A DNA stretch of 54,856 bases, taken from Bacteroidales bacterium. GTDB lineage: Bacteria > Bacteroidota > Bacteroidia > Bacteroidales > UBA932. Of this stretch, positions 13,971 to 20,723 are shown piece by piece. The first letter of the stretch is position 1. Each line of letters starts with the position of its first letter. Below the pieces are notes generated by a model. That model ran no database searches, had not been told where the DNA came from, and saw nothing but the letters and a program-made list of their open reading frames with translations. The translations under genes were made by a program, and so were the position numbers. The stretch is from positions 1 to 54,856 of the forward strand of contig JAFRVZ010000005.1 in assembly GCA_017438265.1 (NCBI GenBank), in the 5' to 3' direction.

Positions 13971-14711
13971 ATGGATATCGACCTCCTGTCAAAAATGGTT
14001 CGCGAAATCATCCTGGAAAGCGATGAAGTCACGCTTCCCGGGGTGGGAATGTTCGTCGCTGAGACGGTTCCCGCGACCTTTTCCAATAAGGGATTTACCA
14101 TCAACCCGCCGTACCGGCGCCTGAGTTTCCGGCAGAAGCAGGGCTCCGACACGCTGCTGGCGGATTACTATGCCGCGACGTACGCGGTCCCGCGGGACAA
14201 GGCCGCCGAGGTGCTGGAAGCGTTCCTGTCGGGGATGAAGGATGTCCTGAAGGAGCGGAAGACCATCGTGTTCCCGGGCCTGGGCCGCCTGCGCGCGACG
14301 AAGGAGAACCAGTTCTTCTTCGTGTCGGACGAGGCGATGGACATCTGTCCGCAGGCCTTCGGGCTGGAGGCGGTGTCGCTGAAGTCGCACGGGACGGTGG
14401 AGGCGCCGGCGGTGCCGGCGGTGCCGGATCCGGTGGCGGCCGCGGAAAAAGATTTCTCGACTCCGCTCGAAATGACAGGGAAGGCGGCGCTCGAAATGAC
14501 AGAGAAGGCGGCGCTCGAAATGACAGGGAAGGCGGCGGAAAGAGATTTCTCGACTGCGCTCGAAATGACAGGGAAGGCGGTGCTGTGGACTGTCGCGGTG
14601 GCGGCGGTGCTGCTGGGATTGCTGGCGGTGCTGGGAAGGGTGGCGCCGGACTTCGTGGACCGCTTCCTGTATACGAAGGAGGAGTTGGAGGTTTTGCGGT
14701 ACGTGCTATGA
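13971..14711 (+). CDS. HU-CCDC81-type DNA-binding domain membrane protein without SPOR domain
   Basis: This 246-residue protein starts with two HU-like halves typical of Bacteroidota HU-CCDC81 proteins: MVREIILESDEVTLPGVGMF with GFTINPPYRRLSFR, then FLSGMKDVLKERKTIVFPGL. A linker (about residues 140-200) follows, then one membrane segment (WTVAVAAVLLGLLAVLG, ~203-220) and only ~25 further residues. Family members usually continue into a periplasmic SPOR domain, which is absent here. The linker is built from tandem copies of a dispersed repeat (DFSTPLEMTGKAALEMTEKA and so on). The protein could tether nucleoid DNA to the inner membrane; this is inference. The stop overlaps the NUDIX start by 4 bp (ATGA). 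Confidence 0.82.
   Translation: MDIDLLSKMVREIILESDEVTLPGVGMFVAETVPATFSNKGFTINPPYRRLSFRQKQGSDTLLADYYAATYAVPRDKAAEVLEAFLSGMKDVLKERKTIVFPGLGRLRATKENQFFFVSDEAMDICPQAFGLEAVSLKSHGTVEAPAVPAVPDPVAAAEKDFSTPLEMTGKAALEMTEKAALEMTGKAAERDFSTALEMTGKAVLWTVAVAAVLLGLLAVLGRVAPDFVDRFLYTKEELEVLRYVL
14451..14580 (+). repeat. Dispersed repeat copies forming an in-frame tandem array inside the HU gene
   Basis: A 24-bp unit beginning GCTCGAAATGACAG occurs at 14465, 14489 and 14513, with a fourth copy at 14558. The first and last copies are each preceded by GATTTCTCGACT (14451 and 14544, 93 bp apart). All spacings are multiples of three, so the frame stays open. The unit is related to the CTGTCATTCCGAGCGAAG repeat found at 35811 and 38228. 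Confidence 0.85.
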
Positions 14712-15298
14712 TCGAGCTGATGTATCCGATGCGGCCGGCGCCCGTTCTGCCGGCTCCGCGCGCGGGGGAGGAGGAAAGGGACCGGAAGGTGTCGGAGGAG
14801 ATGCTGCCGGTGGTGGACGTTTCGGGAGAGGTGGTCGGCCAGGCGGCGCGCTCCTATGTCCACGGCGGTTCCCGCCTGCTGCACCCCGTCGTCCACCTCC
14901 ACATCATCGACCGCCTCGGCCGCCTCTACATCCAGAAGCGCTCCGCGTCCAAGGACCTCTACCCCGGGCGCTGGGACACGGCGGTCGGCGGCCATGTCGG
15001 CTACGGCGAGACCGTCGCCGAAGCCCTCGTCCGCGAAGCGTCCGAGGAGCTGAAACTCTTCGACTTCAATCCCGTCTTCCTGGATGCCTATATCCATGAG
15101 AATGAGCGCGAACGCGAACTCGTCAACGTCTTCGCGACCATCGGCTCGTTCCGGCTGCGGCCGGACCCGGACGAGGTCTCCGAAGGCCGCTACTGGACCT
15201 TCCCGGAGATCGAAGCCGCGCTCGGCGGCGAAGTGTTCACCCCGAATTTTGAAAGCGAATTCACCCGCTATGGAAAAACCCTCGAGGCCCTTCTCTAA
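14708..15298 (+). CDS. NUDIX hydrolase (IPP isomerase-like type)
   Basis: This is a 196-residue NUDIX protein. The Nudix box runs from residue 95: GHVGYGE, seven residues, then REASEELKL, matching GX5EX7REUXEEXGU except that Lys-Leu replaces the terminal Gly-U. The lead-in DLYPGRWDTAVGG is typical of the IPP-isomerase-like / YfcD branch, whose members mostly hydrolyse nucleoside diphosphate derivatives of unknown identity. The ATG at 14708 overlaps the HU stop; the ORF extends upstream in frame but only across HU codons. The next gene begins inside its last 29 bp, so it belongs to the same translationally coupled run as the SpoIID fusion and AmpG. Confidence 0.88.
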   Translation: MIELMYPMRPAPVLPAPRAGEEERDRKVSEEMLPVVDVSGEVVGQAARSYVHGGSRLLHPVVHLHIIDRLGRLYIQKRSASKDLYPGRWDTAVGGHVGYGETVAEALVREASEELKLFDFNPVFLDAYIHENERERELVNVFATIGSFRLRPDPDEVSEGRYWTFPEIEAALGGEVFTPNFESEFTRYGKTLEALL

Positions 15299-17378
15299 AT
15301 TCATCGGAGACCAGCTGTCGGTCTGGCCGCTCGCCGCGGCGAACTTCCGCGCGCTCAAGACGGCGCAGACCCGCACCGTCTCCGTCGGAGGGCTCGAAAC
15401 CCGGCTCCAGTTCAACCCGGAACGCATCATCTCCGCGCTCGCGCCGACCGATGCGGACTCCCTCGCCGCCCGCCCGTGCTTCCTCTGCCCGGAAAACCGC
15501 CCCCCGGAGCAGTTCCACGTCAAGTTCGAAGGCCGCAAGGGCCGCTCCTACAACGTCCAGGTCAACCCCTATCCGGTCTTCCCGGACCACCTCGTCCTCG
15601 CCCGCGACACCCACGTCCCGCAGTCCATCTGGCACTGCTATGTCGACATGCTCGATTTCGCGCGCCGCTACCCCGACTGCACGATCTTCTACAACGGTCC
15701 CGCCAGCGGCGCCTCCGCCCCGGACCACATGCACTTCCAGGCCTGTCCGCGCGGCCTGATGCCCCTGGAGCAGGCCGCCGACCGCGCGCTGGACGGCCCC
15801 GCCCCGGGCGCGGCCGACTTCCTCGCCCGGCTCCAGGACGCGGAGGTCTACCGCCTGCATTGCTTCGCCCGCGGCATCTTCCTGCTGCGCGCCCGGACCG
15901 TCAAGTCCCTCGCGAAGCTCTTCTACCGCGTCCTCGACACGGCCCCCGTCCCCGCCGGCGAGAAAGAGCCCCGTTTCAACCTCATCACCTGGGCCGCCGG
16001 CGGCGAGCTCCGCTCCCTCCTCATCTTCCGCACGACCCACCGCTCCCGCCACTTCTTCCTCCCGGAAGACGACCCGGACCACCTGACGATGAGCCCCGGC
16101 TGCGCCGACATGGGCGGCTGGTTCATCGTCCCGCGCCCGGAGGACTACGCCAAACTCGACGCACGCCTGCTGGAGGAAATGGTCGCGGAGGTGACCCTCT
16201 CCGCGGAAGCGGAAAATGAAATCGTCTGGCGCCTGACCCGGACCCAGCGCAAGATTGACGTCGGCATCATGGCCGCCCCGGAAATCGCCTTCGAGATCAT
16301 CTCCGACGGCGCCGGCGTCCAGCATGTCCGCTGGCAGGACGGCCGCATCAACTACAACGGATCCCTCTACGACGAGCTCGTCTTCGAGGCCCAGACGCCC
16401 GATTCGCTCTTCGCCGAGGCCTCCTTCATCCTCTACGGCGTCACGATCGGCATCGACTTCCACTGGGAGCGCCGCGTGGACCAGCGCTTCGCCGGCTCCC
16501 TGAAATTCATCGTCGAAGGCGAAAGCATCCGCGCCGTCAACACCGTCGGCCTCGAGGACTACCTCCTTAGCGTCATCTCCTCCGAGATGAAAGCCACCGC
16601 CGGCCTCGAGCTCCTGAAAGCCCATGCCATCATCTCCCGCTCCTGGGTCCTCACCAACCACCCCCACACGGGCTTCGACATCTGCGCGGACGACCACTGC
16701 CAGCGCTACCAGGGCAAGACGATGGCCGTCGGCGCGAACGTCCGCCGTGCCATCGACGAGACCTGGGGCCAGGTCCTCTGTTACGGCGGCGACATCTGCG
16801 ACACGCGCTACTCCAAGTGCTGCGGCGGCCGCACGGAGCGGTTCAGCACCTGCTGGGAGGACCGCGACTTCCCGTACCTCCAGCCGGTCGACGACATCCC
16901 GGAAGGCGGCGGCGCCCCCTTCTGCGACACCCGTGACCCGGAAATCCTCCGCCAGGTCCTCAACGACTACGACCGCGAGTCGCCCGACTTTTTCGCCTGG
17001 CAGGTCCGCTATACCCGTGCGGAACTCTCCGACCTCGTCCGCAGCCGCACCGGCATCGATTTCGGCGAGATCCGCGAACTGAACCCGCTGGAGCGCGGCG
17101 CCTCCGGCCGCATCAAAACCCTGGAAATCACCGGCACGAAGGAGCGCCGTGTCCTCGGCAAGGAACTCGCCATCCGCCGCGCCCTGAGCCCCTCCCACCT
17201 CAAGAGCTCGAACTTCGAAGCCCGCTGGGAGGGCGACACGCTGGTCCTCGACGGCCGCGGCTGGGGCCACGGCGTCGGCCTCTGCCAGATCGGCGCCGCC
17301 GTGATGGCCCACGAAGGCTATACCTGCCGCCAGATCCTCCGGCATTATTATCCCGGCACCGAAATCGAACGAAGATGA
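15270..17378 (+). CDS. DUF4922 (HIT/GalT-like) and SpoIID domain fusion protein
   Basis: This 702-residue protein has two parts. Residues ~1-320 look like DUF4922, a HIT/GalT-type fold related to GDP-sugar phosphorylases: CFLCPENRPPEQ (Cys70, Cys73), VNPYPVFPDHLVLA and the catalytic-type HMHFQ (153-157, His-x-His-x-Gln). Residues ~325-702 are a SpoIID/LytB domain, in sporulators a glycan-strand lytic transglycosylase and amidase enhancer, with LEDYLLSVISSEM (Glu439 in the catalytic position), AHAIISRSWVL and the C-terminal RGWGHGVGLCQIGAAVMA. The N-terminus MEKPSRPFSKFIGDQ is not a signal peptide, so the protein should be cytosolic. The start at 15270 is the first sensible ATG, and the frame upstream is shadow. 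It lies between a NUDIX gene and ampG, with a 4-bp overlap to the latter. Confidence 0.82.
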   Translation: MEKPSRPFSKFIGDQLSVWPLAAANFRALKTAQTRTVSVGGLETRLQFNPERIISALAPTDADSLAARPCFLCPENRPPEQFHVKFEGRKGRSYNVQVNPYPVFPDHLVLARDTHVPQSIWHCYVDMLDFARRYPDCTIFYNGPASGASAPDHMHFQACPRGLMPLEQAADRALDGPAPGAADFLARLQDAEVYRLHCFARGIFLLRARTVKSLAKLFYRVLDTAPVPAGEKEPRFNLITWAAGGELRSLLIFRTTHRSRHFFLPEDDPDHLTMSPGCADMGGWFIVPRPEDYAKLDARLLEEMVAEVTLSAEAENEIVWRLTRTQRKIDVGIMAAPEIAFEIISDGAGVQHVRWQDGRINYNGSLYDELVFEAQTPDSLFAEASFILYGVTIGIDFHWERRVDQRFAGSLKFIVEGESIRAVNTVGLEDYLLSVISSEMKATAGLELLKAHAIISRSWVLTNHPHTGFDICADDHCQRYQGKTMAVGANVRRAIDETWGQVLCYGGDICDTRYSKCCGGRTERFSTCWEDRDFPYLQPVDDIPEGGGAPFCDTRDPEILRQVLNDYDRESPDFFAWQVRYTRAELSDLVRSRTGIDFGEIRELNPLERGASGRIKTLEITGTKERRVLGKELAIRRALSPSHLKSSNFEARWEGDTLVLDGRGWGHGVGLCQIGAAVMAHEGYTCRQILRHYYPGTEIERR

Positions 17379-18685
17379 AAAGCAACTCCCCCTGGCAATG
17401 GATTCCGACCCTCTATTTCGCGGAGGGCCTCCCCTACTTCATCGTGAACGTCATCTCCGTGACGATGTTCAAGCGGATGGGCATGAGCAACGGCGACCTG
17501 ACCCTCTACACGAGCCTCCTCTACCTCCCCTGGACCATCAAACCCCTCTGGAGCCCCTTCGTCGACATCGTGAAGAGCAAGCGCTGGTGGATCCTGCTGA
17601 TGCAGGCCCTCCTGACGCTGACCTTCCTCGGCCTCGCGTTCAGCCTCCCACACCCGTCCGCCGCGGAAATCGCCGCCGGCGGCATCGGCATCTCCCCCTT
17701 CCTCTGGACGCTCGCCATCTTCTATGTCAGCGCCTTCGCCTCCGCGACCCATGACATCGCCGCCGACGGCTACTACATGCTCGCGCTGGACCAGCACCGC
17801 CAGTCCGCCTTCGTCGGCGTACGCAACACCTTCTACCGCATCGGCTCCGTCTTCGGCCAGGGCGTCATCGTCGTGATCGCCGGCCTGCTCGAGACCCGCT
17901 ACGGCGACATCCCGAAAGCCTGGTCCGCGACCCTCATCCTCAGCGCCCTGATCTTCGCCGCCATCACCCTCTACCACCACTTCTTCCTGCCGCGCCCCGC
18001 GGAGGACGAAACCCGGCAGGTCCAGTCGTCCCGGGAGATTTTCCGGGATTTCGGCCGGACCTTCGTCAGCTTCTTCAGCAAGCCCGGCGTCTGGATCGCC
18101 ATCGTCTTCATGCTCCTCTACCGCCTTCCGGAGGCCTTCTCCGTCAAGCTGCTGACGCCCTTCATGCTGGATCCGGTCGAGAAGGGCGGCCTCGGCCTCA
18201 CGACCGCACAGTCCGGCCTCGTCTACGGGACGGTCGGCGTCGTCGCGCTGCTGCTCGGCGGCATCCTCGGCGGCCTCGCCGCCGCCCGCTGGGGTCTGCG
18301 CAAGATGCTCTGGCCGATGGCCCTCGCCCTCGCGCTCCCCTGCTCCGTCTACCTCTATCTGGCCGCCGCCCAGCCCCACTCCCTCGGCATCATCTACGCC
18401 TGCGTCGCCTTCGACCAGTTCGGCTACGGCTTCGGCTTCACCGCCTATACCCTTTATATGATGTATTTCGCGGACGGCAAGTTCAAGACGGCCCACTACG
18501 CGCTCTGCACGGCCTTCATGGCCCTGAGCATGATGCTGCCGGGCCTGGTCGCCGGCCGCCTGCAGGAATCCCTCGGCTACACAGGCTTCTTCGTGATGGT
18601 GATGGCCTGCTGCCTGCTGACCGTCGCCGTGACCTTCATCGTCCGCCGCCGCATCGACCCGGCCTACGGCCGCAAAACCGCCTAG
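17375..18685 (+). CDS. ampG: AmpG-family muropeptide MFS permease
   Basis: This is a 436-residue polytopic protein with about 12 membrane segments. The N-terminus WIPTLYFAEGLPYFIVNVIS and LYTSLLYLPWTIKPLWSPFV are signatures of AmpG, which imports GlcNAc-anhydroMurNAc peptides from the periplasm. The segment ASATHDIAADGYYMLAL is the conserved TM4 region. The ATG overlaps the stop of the SpoIID fusion by 4 bp, and NamZ follows 4 bp later. The context supports import of wall fragments that the neighbouring enzymes make or use. Substrate specificity is inferred from family and neighbours. Confidence 0.9.
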   Translation: MKSNSPWQWIPTLYFAEGLPYFIVNVISVTMFKRMGMSNGDLTLYTSLLYLPWTIKPLWSPFVDIVKSKRWWILLMQALLTLTFLGLAFSLPHPSAAEIAAGGIGISPFLWTLAIFYVSAFASATHDIAADGYYMLALDQHRQSAFVGVRNTFYRIGSVFGQGVIVVIAGLLETRYGDIPKAWSATLILSALIFAAITLYHHFFLPRPAEDETRQVQSSREIFRDFGRTFVSFFSKPGVWIAIVFMLLYRLPEAFSVKLLTPFMLDPVEKGGLGLTTAQSGLVYGTVGVVALLLGGILGGLAAARWGLRKMLWPMALALALPCSVYLYLAAAQPHSLGIIYACVAFDQFGYGFGFTAYTLYMMYFADGKFKTAHYALCTAFMALSMMLPGLVAGRLQESLGYTGFFVMVMACCLLTVAVTFIVRRRIDPAYGRKTA

Positions 18686-18689
18686 CCTT

Positions 18690-19973
18690 ATGAGAAAAAC
18701 CGCATTCTACGCATTCGCCCTGCTGCTCTGCTGCCTCTCCTGCCGCGGCCAGCAGCCCTCCGCCGCCGTCCAGGTCGCCCCTTCCGCCCCCGTCAAGCCC
18801 GGCATCGAAGTCCTCCGCGAGCGCGGCTTCGAAGGCCTGAAGGGCAAGCGCGTCGGCCTGCTCACGAACCCCTCGGGGGTGGACCGCAACCTGAAGAGCA
18901 CCGTCGACATCCTCTTCGAGGCCCCCGAAGTCAACCTCGTCGCCCTGTTCGCGCCGGAGCACGGCGTCCGCGGCGACGTCTACGCCGGCGGCAAGGTCGA
19001 GAGCGGCCGCGACGAGACGACCGGCCTGCCGGTCCACTCCGTCTACGGCGCGACCCGCAAGCCGACCCCGGAGATGCTCCGCGGCCTCGACATCGTCGTC
19101 TACGACATCCAGGACGTCGGCACCCGCTCCTACACCTTCATCAGCTCCCTCGGCCTGATGATGAGCGCCTGCGCCGAGCTCGGCATCGAGGTGATGGTCC
19201 TCGACCGCCCGAACCCGCTCGGCGGCCGGAAGGTCGAAGGTTCCCTCGTCGAGCCGGGCTTCTACTCCTTCGTCAGCCAGTACCCGATTCCCTACATCTA
19301 CGGCCTCACGGCCGGCGAGGTCGCGACCTTCATCAACGAAGAGGGCGTCAACCTCGGCCAGAAGGGCACGGACCCGTTCCACAAGTGCAAGCTCACGGTC
19401 GTCCCGATGGAAGGCTGGCGCCGCGACATGCGCTTCACCGACACCGGCCTCCCCTGGATCCTCCCCTCCCCGAACATCCCCTACCCCCAGACCGCCATCG
19501 ACTACCCCTGCTCGGGCCTCGTCGGCGAGTGCCCGGGGTTCCTCAACATCGGCATCGGCTACAGCCTCCCCTTCGAGCTCTTCGCCGCCCCCTGGATCGA
19601 CGCGGACAGGCTCAAGGCCCGCCTGGACAGCTACAACCTCCCCGGCATCGCCTTCCGCACCATCCACTACACCCCCTTCTCCGGCAGCATGCGCGGCACC
19701 CTGATCCACGGCGTCCAGTTCTACTTCACCGACTACGAAGTGGCGACCATCACCCTGACCCAGTTCTGGGTCATGCAGGCCATCCACGAGCTCTACCCCG
19801 ACCGCGACCCCTTCGCGACCGGGGACTACGCGATGTTCGACAAGTGCGCCGGGTCGGACTACATCCGCACGACCTTCCGCCGCCGCTACAAGGTCGCCGA
19901 CATCCTCGATTTCTGGAACCGGGACGCGGACGGCTTCCGCGCCCTCAGCTCGAAGTATTACCTTTATGAATAG
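18690..19973 (+). CDS. namZ: NamZ-type exo-beta-N-acetylmuramidase lipoprotein (DUF1343)
   Basis: This 427-residue DUF1343 protein carries a signal with a cysteine-rich lipobox (LLCCLSC, Cys18). Family motifs are KRVGLLTNPSGVDR, LFAPEHGVRGD, VYDIQDVGTRSYTFISSLGL, DRPNPLGG and, later, LPSPNIPYP. Characterised relatives (Bacillus and Tannerella NamZ) release MurNAc from the non-reducing ends of peptidoglycan fragments. The lipoprotein signal puts it outside the inner membrane, where it would trim wall glycans, with AmpG next door importing products. Spacing to ampG is 4 bp and to the K+ channel gene 6 bp, so all are probably one transcript. Confidence 0.9.
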   Translation: MRKTAFYAFALLLCCLSCRGQQPSAAVQVAPSAPVKPGIEVLRERGFEGLKGKRVGLLTNPSGVDRNLKSTVDILFEAPEVNLVALFAPEHGVRGDVYAGGKVESGRDETTGLPVHSVYGATRKPTPEMLRGLDIVVYDIQDVGTRSYTFISSLGLMMSACAELGIEVMVLDRPNPLGGRKVEGSLVEPGFYSFVSQYPIPYIYGLTAGEVATFINEEGVNLGQKGTDPFHKCKLTVVPMEGWRRDMRFTDTGLPWILPSPNIPYPQTAIDYPCSGLVGECPGFLNIGIGYSLPFELFAAPWIDADRLKARLDSYNLPGIAFRTIHYTPFSGSMRGTLIHGVQFYFTDYEVATITLTQFWVMQAIHELYPDRDPFATGDYAMFDKCAGSDYIRTTFRRRYKVADILDFWNRDADGFRALSSKYYLYE

Positions 19974-19979
19974 CAGGCC

Positions 19980-20723
19980 ATGAGAAAGCGCATCTACGAG
20001 ATTATCGAATTCGGACGCCGCGGAGGTACGGCAAGCGTCGTCTACGAGTACCTGATGCTGGTCGCCATCATCGTGAGCATCATCCCGCTGATGTTCTACG
20101 AAACCAATCCCGTCTTCCACATCATCGAAGCCGTGACGGTGAGCCTGTTCATCCTGGACTATCTGCTGCGCTGGCTGACCGCGGATTACCGGCAGAAAAA
20201 AGGGGCCCTGTCGTTTGCCAGGTATCCGTTCACGCCCTGGGCCGTCATCGACCTGCTGTCCATCCTCCCGGGCCTGAGCCTGATCGGCAAGGGATTCAAG
20301 ATCCTCCGTCTGACCCGCCTGCTGCGGATCATCCGCCTGCTGAAGCTCATCCGCTACTCCAGCAAGTTCCGCATCCTCGGCCGCGTCATCCACAAGGAGC
20401 GGAAAGTCCTGCTGGCCGTGATGTGGGTCGCCGTCTTCTACGTCTTCCTGACGGCGCTCATCATGTTCAACGCCGAGCCGCACATCAACCCGGTGACCGG
20501 CGCCGAGACCTTCCACGACTTCTTCGACGCGCTCTACTGGGCGACCGTCACCCTCACGACCGTGGGCTACGGCGACATGATCCCCGTCACGGACATCGGC
20601 CACCTCGTCAGCATGGTTTCCTCGCTGTTCGGCGTCGCCATCATCGCCCTCCCCTCCGGCGTCATCACCGCCAGTTACCTCAACGAACTCCGCAACGAAA
20701 GAAACAACAACGGAAAAAGTTGA
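19980..20723 (+). CDS. Voltage-gated-type potassium channel
   Basis: This is a 247-residue six-helix channel subunit. S1-S4 lie within residues 20-127; S4 is rich in regularly spaced Arg and Lys (KILRLTRLLRIIRLLKLIR, 107-125), as in voltage sensors. The pore loop carries the K+ selectivity filter TTVGYGD (193-199), followed by S6 (ALPSGVITASYLNE). There is no RCK/TrkA domain; the C-terminus is only a short basic tail. It is the last gene of the muropeptide run, 6 bp after namZ. The coupling to wall recycling is unexplained. Confidence 0.93.
   Translation: MRKRIYEIIEFGRRGGTASVVYEYLMLVAIIVSIIPLMFYETNPVFHIIEAVTVSLFILDYLLRWLTADYRQKKGALSFARYPFTPWAVIDLLSILPGLSLIGKGFKILRLTRLLRIIRLLKLIRYSSKFRILGRVIHKERKVLLAVMWVAVFYVFLTALIMFNAEPHINPVTGAETFHDFFDALYWATVTLTTVGYGDMIPVTDIGHLVSMVSSLFGVAIIALPSGVITASYLNELRNERNNNGKS

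Follow-up and report, generated by a model that had tools for sequence, protein, structure and literature searches.

Genes and domains at the locus

The window analysed in this work is a 54,856-nucleotide stretch of a Bacteroidales bacterium (UBA932), positions 1–54,856 of the forward strand of contig JAFRVZ010000005.1 (assembly GCA_017438265.1; 1.74 Mb, 88% complete). It encodes a protein in which a DUF4922 domain is fused to a SpoIID domain, and the gene for this fusion lies in a run of overlapping or abutting genes that begins with an HU-CCDC81 DNA-binding-like protein and continues through a NUDIX hydrolase-like protein and the fusion to an AmpG-type muropeptide importer and the exo-N-acetylmuramidase NamZ (Table 1). 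The HU-CCDC81 gene shares 4 bp with the NUDIX gene, whose end overlaps the start of the fusion's open reading frame by 29 bp; the AmpG gene overlaps the fusion by 4 bp, and a gap of 4 bp separates it from NamZ. These coordinates agree with a preliminary description of the window, in which the last four genes were placed at 14708–19973, and the domains and motifs that it claimed for the fusion (HMHFQ, CFLC, SSEM, and WGHGVG) are all in place. The grouping exceeds chance, since the same order of DUF4922, SpoIID, AmpG, and often NamZ recurs across the Bacteroidales.

Table 1. Features of the window in and around the DUF4922–SpoIID fusion gene.
Feature	Position	Strand	Basis and remarks
HU-CCDC81 DNA-binding-like protein	13971..14711	+	PF18175, PF18174, PF00216; linked
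NUDIX hydrolase-like protein	14708..15298	+	PF00293
DUF4922-SpoIID fusion, 702 aa	ATG 15270..17378	+	Pfam, NCBIfam, motifs
DUF4922 domain	15300..15746	+	PF16269, residues 11-159, E 4.4e-52; Ap4A-phosphorylase/GalT type II-like
CFLC motif	15477-15488	+	residues 70-73, in DUF4922 domain
HMHFQ motif	15726-15740	+	residues 153-157, in DUF4922 domain
SpoIID/LytB region	16248..17375	+	PF08486 + TIGR02669
SSEM, catalytic Glu	16578-16589	+	residues 437-440; Glu column aligned to solved SpoIIDs
H/C/H/C metal motif (H-x5-C-x3-HC)	16665-16700	+	residues 466-477; motif
WGHGVG	17262-17279	+	residues 665-670; motif
AmpG-type muropeptide importer	17375..18685	+	PF07690 (MFS_1); TIGR00901 match under model cut-off
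NamZ exo-N-acetylmuramidase	18690..19973	+	PF07075 (NamZ_N/NamZ_C pair with PF20732)
Ion-channel gene	19980..20723	+	PF00520; 6-bp gap after NamZ

No second SpoIID domain was found in the window assembly. The SpoIID region was matched by PF08486 (residues 417–505, E 2.6e-24, 86 bits against a cut-off of 23) and TIGR02669 (residues 422–701, 189 bits against a cut-off of 83). Its catalytic glutamate column matches that of the solved SpoIIDs 4RWR and 5I1T, and the corresponding residues reported for the Clostridioides difficile enzyme are E101, H134, C140, H145, and C146 (PMC6221140; this and the other papers given by PMC number are cited from excerpts). The glutamate, the metal motif, and WGHGVG are all kept in a 16-member alignment. 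In a scan of named genomes, which returned at least 562 confirmed relatives, the best 80 were used for the counts of named loci; the glutamate is present in each of these 80 loci (79 SSE, 1 ASE), as is the metal motif, a figure that is partly by design because the scan used CADDHCQ or GWGHGVGL.

With respect to the DUF4922 domain, the HxHFQ form of its motif is invariant in a 24-row alignment of the family, and HxHxQ is found without exception in the named loci that encode DUF4922 (62 of 62), the fourth position being F or Y in 57 and L in 5. Like Apa2 and the type II GalT proteins, the domain carries this motif and gives a weak yet clear profile match to yeast Apa2 (E 1.5e-8); unlike them, it falls far under the GalT cut-offs (18.7 bits for galT_2 on the window fusion, against 650) and bears an extra CxxC pair. 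These likenesses suggest that DUF4922 is probably a nucleotide-dependent phosphorylase or transferase. The window AmpG, which scores 175.8 bits against the TIGR00901 cut-off of 350, is 52% identical to the AmpG of Tannerella forsythia, encoded at the same operon place (L095). NamZ begins with a hydrophobic, lipoprotein-like signal (LLLCCLSCRG; signal type judged by eye).

A SpoIID clade without export signals in the Bacteroidales

Because DUF4922 already starts at residue 11 of the fusion, a signal peptide could not be accommodated in front of it, and the absence of one had been described. Relatives were sought by searching 198 Bacteroidales genomes with the window fusion as the query, which matched 116 of them: 43 with a strong, close SpoIID (SpoIID-positive genomes, chosen by hand for a strong match with E below about 1e-38) and 73 with distant ones only. 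Outside the genus, the close SpoIIDs mostly share 50–63% identity over the best SpoIID segment, against roughly 30% over the core for the distant ones. The best 80 loci of the named-genome scan came from Tannerella, Bacteroides, Phocaeicola, Prevotella, Parabacteroides, Dysgonomonas, Muribaculaceae, Marinifilum, and metagenome-assembled genomes labelled Cytophagales or Cyclobacteriaceae; SpoIID is joined to DUF4922 in 21 of them and unfused in 59.

None of these 59 unfused SpoIIDs has a hydrophobic N-terminus according to a hand-made Kyte–Doolittle measure, used instead of SignalP, so that a secretion signal is missing from the homologues as well. Fewer than 12 residues lie between the first in-frame methionine and the start of the conserved domain in 36 of them, and in the other 23 this stretch is never hydrophobic (highest 12-residue mean 1.09, versus 2.5–2.7 in three exported controls). 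A misplaced start codon masking a signal peptide was rejected for the clade by this same comparison of 59 N-termini. Both distant SpoIIDs that were inspected (L087 and L088) carry clear signal peptides. It is therefore very likely, judging from the sequences, that the SpoIID part resides in the cytosol. The clade shares with the SpoIID/LytB lytic transglycosylases of Bacillus subtilis, C. difficile, and Waddlia the SpoIID domain, the catalytic glutamate, the H/C/H/C motif of the C. difficile type, and, in Waddlia, a hydrolytic precedent; it differs from them in lacking an export signal, in its tie to AmpG, and in being joined to DUF4922 or to GT2–DUF4922 (GT2, glycosyltransferase family 2) in some genomes. 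No paper describing a cytosolic SpoIID was found in the full-text literature searched, a body outside which most subscription papers fall. The excerpt of one paper names MltD as cytoplasmic in passing, and the full-text matches listed for DUF4922 were plant papers.

The two parts are joined in nearly all genomes of the window genus that have both, whereas most other families encode them separately, often side by side. The linkage emphasised in the preliminary description thus survives as proximity, the genes being separate in most other families yet usually neighbours, and fusion as the defining feature was rejected; it is one of several arrangements and specific to the lineage. When only loci with enough flanking sequence for each gene were considered, DUF4922 was located within 600 bp upstream of SpoIID in 58/75 loci, a GT2 gene (PF00535) within 3.5 kb upstream in 58/68, AmpG within 700 bp downstream in 58/67, and NamZ within 3.5 kb downstream in 30/64. 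In two loci from genomes listed only as belonging to the same phylum (L005 and L031), a SpoIID homologue likewise lies no more than 1.5 kb from DUF4922, and from these the pairing may predate the Bacteroidales.

Association with AmpG and losses within the genus

Operon-type AmpG, defined by E < 1e-70 and at least 42% identity, was present in 43/43 SpoIID-positive genomes and in none of the other 155; two of the latter (G480 and G534) have only an AmpG paralogue of 38–39%. Among the matches listed, DUF4922 was found in 42 of the 43 SpoIID-positive genomes (not in G489) and in none of the rest. A tree of rpoB was built for 110 of the 198 genomes (30 given loci and 80 fetched stretches; 186 genomes had an rpoB match), leaving out 15 SpoIID-positive genomes and the window assembly (no rpoB match), and on this tree SpoIID and AmpG agree in 6/6 well-supported independent pairs (p 0.03). 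A second AmpG paralogue with 37–40% identity is encoded elsewhere in the genomes G238, G513, G486, G557, G230, G422, G435, G501, and G453.

The survey of the window genus covered 25 genomes, the window's own included. AmpG is missing in five of them, among which G598 (63% complete) also lacks a fusion match. In the other four, the fusion stops early: SSEM has been lost, as has the half that carries WGHGVG, and the metal motif is either missing or, as in G593, present in altered form, with the DUF4922 HxHxQ and CxxC motifs still retained. All 21 AmpG-positive members (20 plus G402), on the other hand, keep the glutamate, the metal motif, and WGHG, and a DUF4922 tree indicated two independent losses of the SpoIID site. 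A full GT2 was found in 16/20 AmpG-positive and 0/5 AmpG-negative genomes (Fisher 0.0024, or 0.0066 without G598, neither value being corrected for the two loss events). In G598, GT2 is represented by no more than a fragment of 90 residues (41%) next to a contig end; of the four AmpG-positive genomes without GT2, three are 74–81% complete and one 95%. The reverse arrangement was found in G589 (74% complete, locus L084), where an unfused SpoIID comes directly after NUDIX, AmpG is next, and a DUF4922 was not found, the opposite of what is seen in the genomes whose SpoIID part is dead.

Consequently, SpoIID catalysis and GT2 follow AmpG, and DUF4922 can be kept or lost separately. The preliminary description had the DUF4922 part acting on the product of SpoIID; since DUF4922 remains intact in genomes that have lost AmpG and the SpoIID site, and is itself gone in G589, it is probably not merely the next step after SpoIID. 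As for the active sites in close relatives, the SpoIID glutamate is lost in 4/25 same-genus genomes and kept in 21/21 with AmpG, while HxHxQ is kept in 4/4 genomes with a dead SpoIID, with the whole domain not found in G589. The truncated fusions (L077, L081, L082, and L083) still contain the beginning of the SpoIID region, up to or slightly beyond TWGQ/TWGE, as if this part played a structural role for DUF4922.

Comparison with the Tannerella forsythia ampG operon

The operon itself is already known from T. forsythia, where its SpoIID had been called an amidase enhancer. In strain ATCC 43037, Tanf_08345 to 08385 form one transcript under GppX control, in the order xanthan lyase, gtf, gtf, lytB (amidase enhancer precursor), ampG, ybbC, murT, murK, and murQ (PMC5388701). 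By gene order on contig NZ_JUET01000082 (L095), the second gtf is DUF4922, lytB is the SpoIID of the present clade, and ybbC is NamZ. The order DUF4922–SpoIID–AmpG–NamZ is thus shared with the window, and AmpG function has been tested in T. forsythia. In contrast to the T. forsythia operon, in which GT2 precedes DUF4922, the window genome encodes GT2 elsewhere; the window also differs in the fusion of DUF4922 with SpoIID, in having NUDIX and HU genes upstream, and in that no MurQ was found. The excerpt of PMC5388701 does not mention the exportless state of the T. forsythia SpoIID. The operon is therefore not new, having been published in this species, and what was unreported in the literature searched is the exportless SpoIID.

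The growth of T. forsythia on the disaccharides GlcNAc-MurNAc and GlcNAc-anhydroMurNAc (GlcNAc, N-acetylglucosamine; MurNAc, N-acetylmuramic acid) needs AmpG (PMC7670621). The wild type reached an optical density of about 0.8 and 0.6 on supernatants containing GlcNAc-anhydroMurNAc and about 0.28 on anhydroMurNAc; no AnmK was predicted, and the metabolic route was called open (PMC7670621).

Distribution of AnmK, MurQ, and NagZ

The enzyme that normally returns anhydroMurNAc to use is AnmK. It was present in 5/43 SpoIID-positive and 130/155 SpoIID-negative genomes (Fisher p 1e-18), so that five of the 198 Bacteroidales have both AnmK and the SpoIID clade and 25 have neither; genomes with distant SpoIIDs only do not show this scarcity of AnmK (present in 69/73). 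Local swaps of AnmK and SpoIID are seen in the pairs G465/G567 and G449/G411. Within the genus, no AnmK was found in the window assembly (88% complete) or in 23 of the 24 other genomes; the one genome with AnmK, G607, is one of the four in which both AmpG and the SpoIID site have been lost. The G607 gene lies at G607:C22:26345-27376 (L341), and the tetranucleotide profile of its contig is like that of the fusion contig (r 0.94).

MurQ (E < 1e-40, counted by hand) was found in 23/43 SpoIID-positive and 20/155 SpoIID-negative genomes, and a search of the 88% complete window assembly gave no match. A strong MurQ match occurs in just 13 of the 130 AnmK-positive genomes without the SpoIID clade (hand count). 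The window assembly has six GH3 (glycoside hydrolase family 3) matches. In no frame of any of them was KHF(P/A)G(H/D/Y)G found, a motif that we take to be of the NagZ type. In T. forsythia, the sole GH3 match with this motif carries a hydrophobic N-terminus, and no cytosolic NagZ was recognised by the GH3 search and the motif. Compared with the AmpG–NagZ–AmpD–AnmK–MurQ route of Escherichia coli, the window shares the AmpG-type importer and differs by the cytosolic SpoIID, by the lack of AnmK and MurQ matches in the assembly at its 88% completeness, and by the missing NagZ motif in the GH3 proteins. The distinctness from NagZ/AmpD/MurQ recycling claimed earlier does not simply hold for MurQ, since the T. 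forsythia operon continues into murT–murK–murQ, although the 88% complete window assembly gave neither a MurQ nor an AnmK match.

Proposed function and alternative explanations

We propose, with a rough probability of 0.4, that the locus is the version, in the window lineage, of a Bacteroidales module for wall-sugar salvage with a cytosolic, ring-opening SpoIID at its centre. The location of SpoIID and its tie to AmpG make AmpG cargo in the cytosol its likely substrate; that the reaction is the opening of the 1,6-anhydro bond is a tentative assignment. AmpG would bring GlcNAc-MurNAc and GlcNAc-anhydroMurNAc into the cytosol, as reported for T. forsythia, and SpoIID would hydrolyse the C1–O6 bond of GlcNAc-anhydroMurNAc to give GlcNAc-MurNAc, replacing AnmK. 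Several considerations point this way. The disaccharide cargo has no MurNAc–GlcNAc bond, which leaves the 1,6-anhydro bond as the likely target; C1–O6 is also the sole bond of the cargo equivalent to one that lytic transglycosylases make, which would suit a ring-opening hydrolase best; and the combination of a SpoIID fold in the cytosol, a tie to AmpG, and a general lack of AnmK suggests the same activity. Hydrolysis of denuded glycan has been reported for the SpoIID of Waddlia (PMC6635528), which means that this kind of enzyme can use water as acceptor. With GlcNAc occupying the neighbouring SpoIID subsite, free anhydroMurNAc would be a poor source, and action on the disaccharide would account for the ability of T. 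forsythia to live on GlcNAc-anhydroMurNAc and barely on anhydroMurNAc. More weakly, we infer that DUF4922 may serve the same sugar pool as a nucleotide-dependent phosphorylase or transferase and that GT2 may handle the GlcNAc-MurNAc product. The more specific scheme, in which SpoIID is an ATP-free replacement of AnmK on the disaccharide itself and a reversed GT2, together with DUF4922 as a phosphorylase of nucleoside diphosphate (NDP) sugars, could split GlcNAc-MurNAc phosphorolytically, is doubtful. The cytosolic processing of imported wall fragments put forward in the preliminary description is thus the best reading of the place of SpoIID and its tie to AmpG, with the 1,6-anhydro bond taking the place of glycan cutting as the likely target.

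A number of observations weigh against a ring-opening SpoIID. To our knowledge, the opening of an anhydro ring is not known for any SpoIID. Nor does the module behave as a single tight pathway, since DUF4922 persists after the loss of AmpG and the SpoIID site, and SpoIID persists without DUF4922 in G589. On the rpoB tree, the AnmK contrast runs the same way in 0–1 independent pairs and the opposite way in 2–3, with the rest tied (median p 0.5); it comes mostly from one large clade, mostly SpoIID-positive and AnmK-negative, plus scattered events. It is suggestive only and not significant once phylogeny is considered, and its use as proof was downgraded after the tree. The AnmK-bearing G607 is listed with 5% contamination. 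In T. forsythia, a whole-cell extract built up GlcNAc-anhydroMurNAc in 20 h, which is not the picture expected of a strong ring-opening enzyme; weak growth on free anhydroMurNAc may, as the authors also note, reflect poor import only, and these authors, for whom disaccharides are the major AmpG substrates, did not exclude muropeptides (PMC7670621).

Among the alternatives for the SpoIID part, a cytosolic muramidase or lytic transglycosylase would cut MurNAc–GlcNAc bonds in longer or MurNAc-ended fragments taken up through AmpG or another route, as a cytosolic twin of NamZ, and leave the anhydro ring to another factor. The conserved glutamate and metal site, the dependence on AmpG, and the presence downstream, in 30/64 loci, of NamZ, which attacks the same type of bond outside the cell, are all in its favour; however, the T. 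forsythia cargo consists mainly of disaccharides without that bond (PMC7670621), and the use of anhydroMurNAc without AnmK would be left unexplained, which makes it rather unlikely. A synthetic or transglycosylating role, in which GT2, DUF4922, and SpoIID build or transfer a MurNAc sugar with the anhydro bond as the activated donor and an acceptor other than water, appears quite unlikely: the three parts share one reading frame in several Prevotella-type loci, GT2 lies upstream in 58/68 loci, and no full GT2 remains in the five AmpG-negative genus genomes, but GT2 is off the operon in the window genome and was not found in 4/20 AmpG-positive genus genomes, DUF4922 and SpoIID each persist alone, and no product is known. 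Export by an unrecognised route, with periplasmic action as in the SpoIIDs of the cited papers, which work outside the cytoplasm (PMC6635528, PMC6221140), is very improbable given the 59/59 unfused members without a hydrophobic N-terminus and the fusion to nucleotide-type DUF4922 and GT2 domains.

A further explanation concerns DUF4922 and fits either reading of SpoIID. The domain could be a housekeeping dinucleotide or NDP-sugar phosphorylase outside wall salvage, with SpoIID riding along by fusion. This is a real possibility, though at less than even odds, and it draws on the yeast Apa2 match, on the intact DUF4922 of 4/4 genomes with a dead SpoIID part, and on the many other families of the phylum sample that have DUF4922 with no SpoIID within 1.5 kb; it is strengthened by G589, where SpoIID and AmpG are intact without DUF4922. 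On the other side, DUF4922 matches were listed among the 198 Bacteroidales only in genomes positive for SpoIID and AmpG, so that across the order its presence follows that of the module.

Of the 43 sampled Bacteroidales with the module, 38 are without AnmK, and the use of anhydro fragments by T. forsythia is left open in print (PMC7670621). If SpoIID opens the anhydro ring, the cytosolic enzyme would fill a gap in wall recycling in a major gut order, SpoIID would gain both a new location and a new direction in which it acts, and an explanation would be at hand for the GT2–DUF4922–SpoIID block, whose T. forsythia annotation reads two glycosyltransferases and one amidase enhancer. The holders of the module include many gut and mouth Bacteroidales.

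Other genes in the neighbourhood

The closest NCBIfam models to the NUDIX protein, IPP (isopentenyl diphosphate) isomerase and YfcD, both score under their cut-offs. NUDIX stands beside the fusion in most same-genus loci, and it was found in 0/80 wider loci, some on short contigs with cut flanks; it was accordingly rejected as a core component outside the window genus, and the role of by-product remover once suggested for it gives way to that of a genus-level neighbour. The HU-CCDC81 gene lies upstream in several same-genus loci too. A position next to DUF4922 as a strict requirement for GT2 is weakened by the window genome and by the 4/20 AmpG-positive genus genomes without GT2.

GT2 is joined to DUF4922 in 17/80 loci, and a Golvesin_C protein of roughly 1050–1150 residues belongs to a cluster of neighbours found in 29/80. 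Ten Prevotella-type loci (L134, L137, L142, L148, L152, L153, L154, L158, L160, and L168) have single frames of about 1250–1330 codons composed of an N-terminal part, DUF4922, and SpoIID. The N-terminal part is GT2-like (from the translations of L134 and L168, and by similarity in the others), and five of these ten frames carry HxHLQ in place of HxHFQ.

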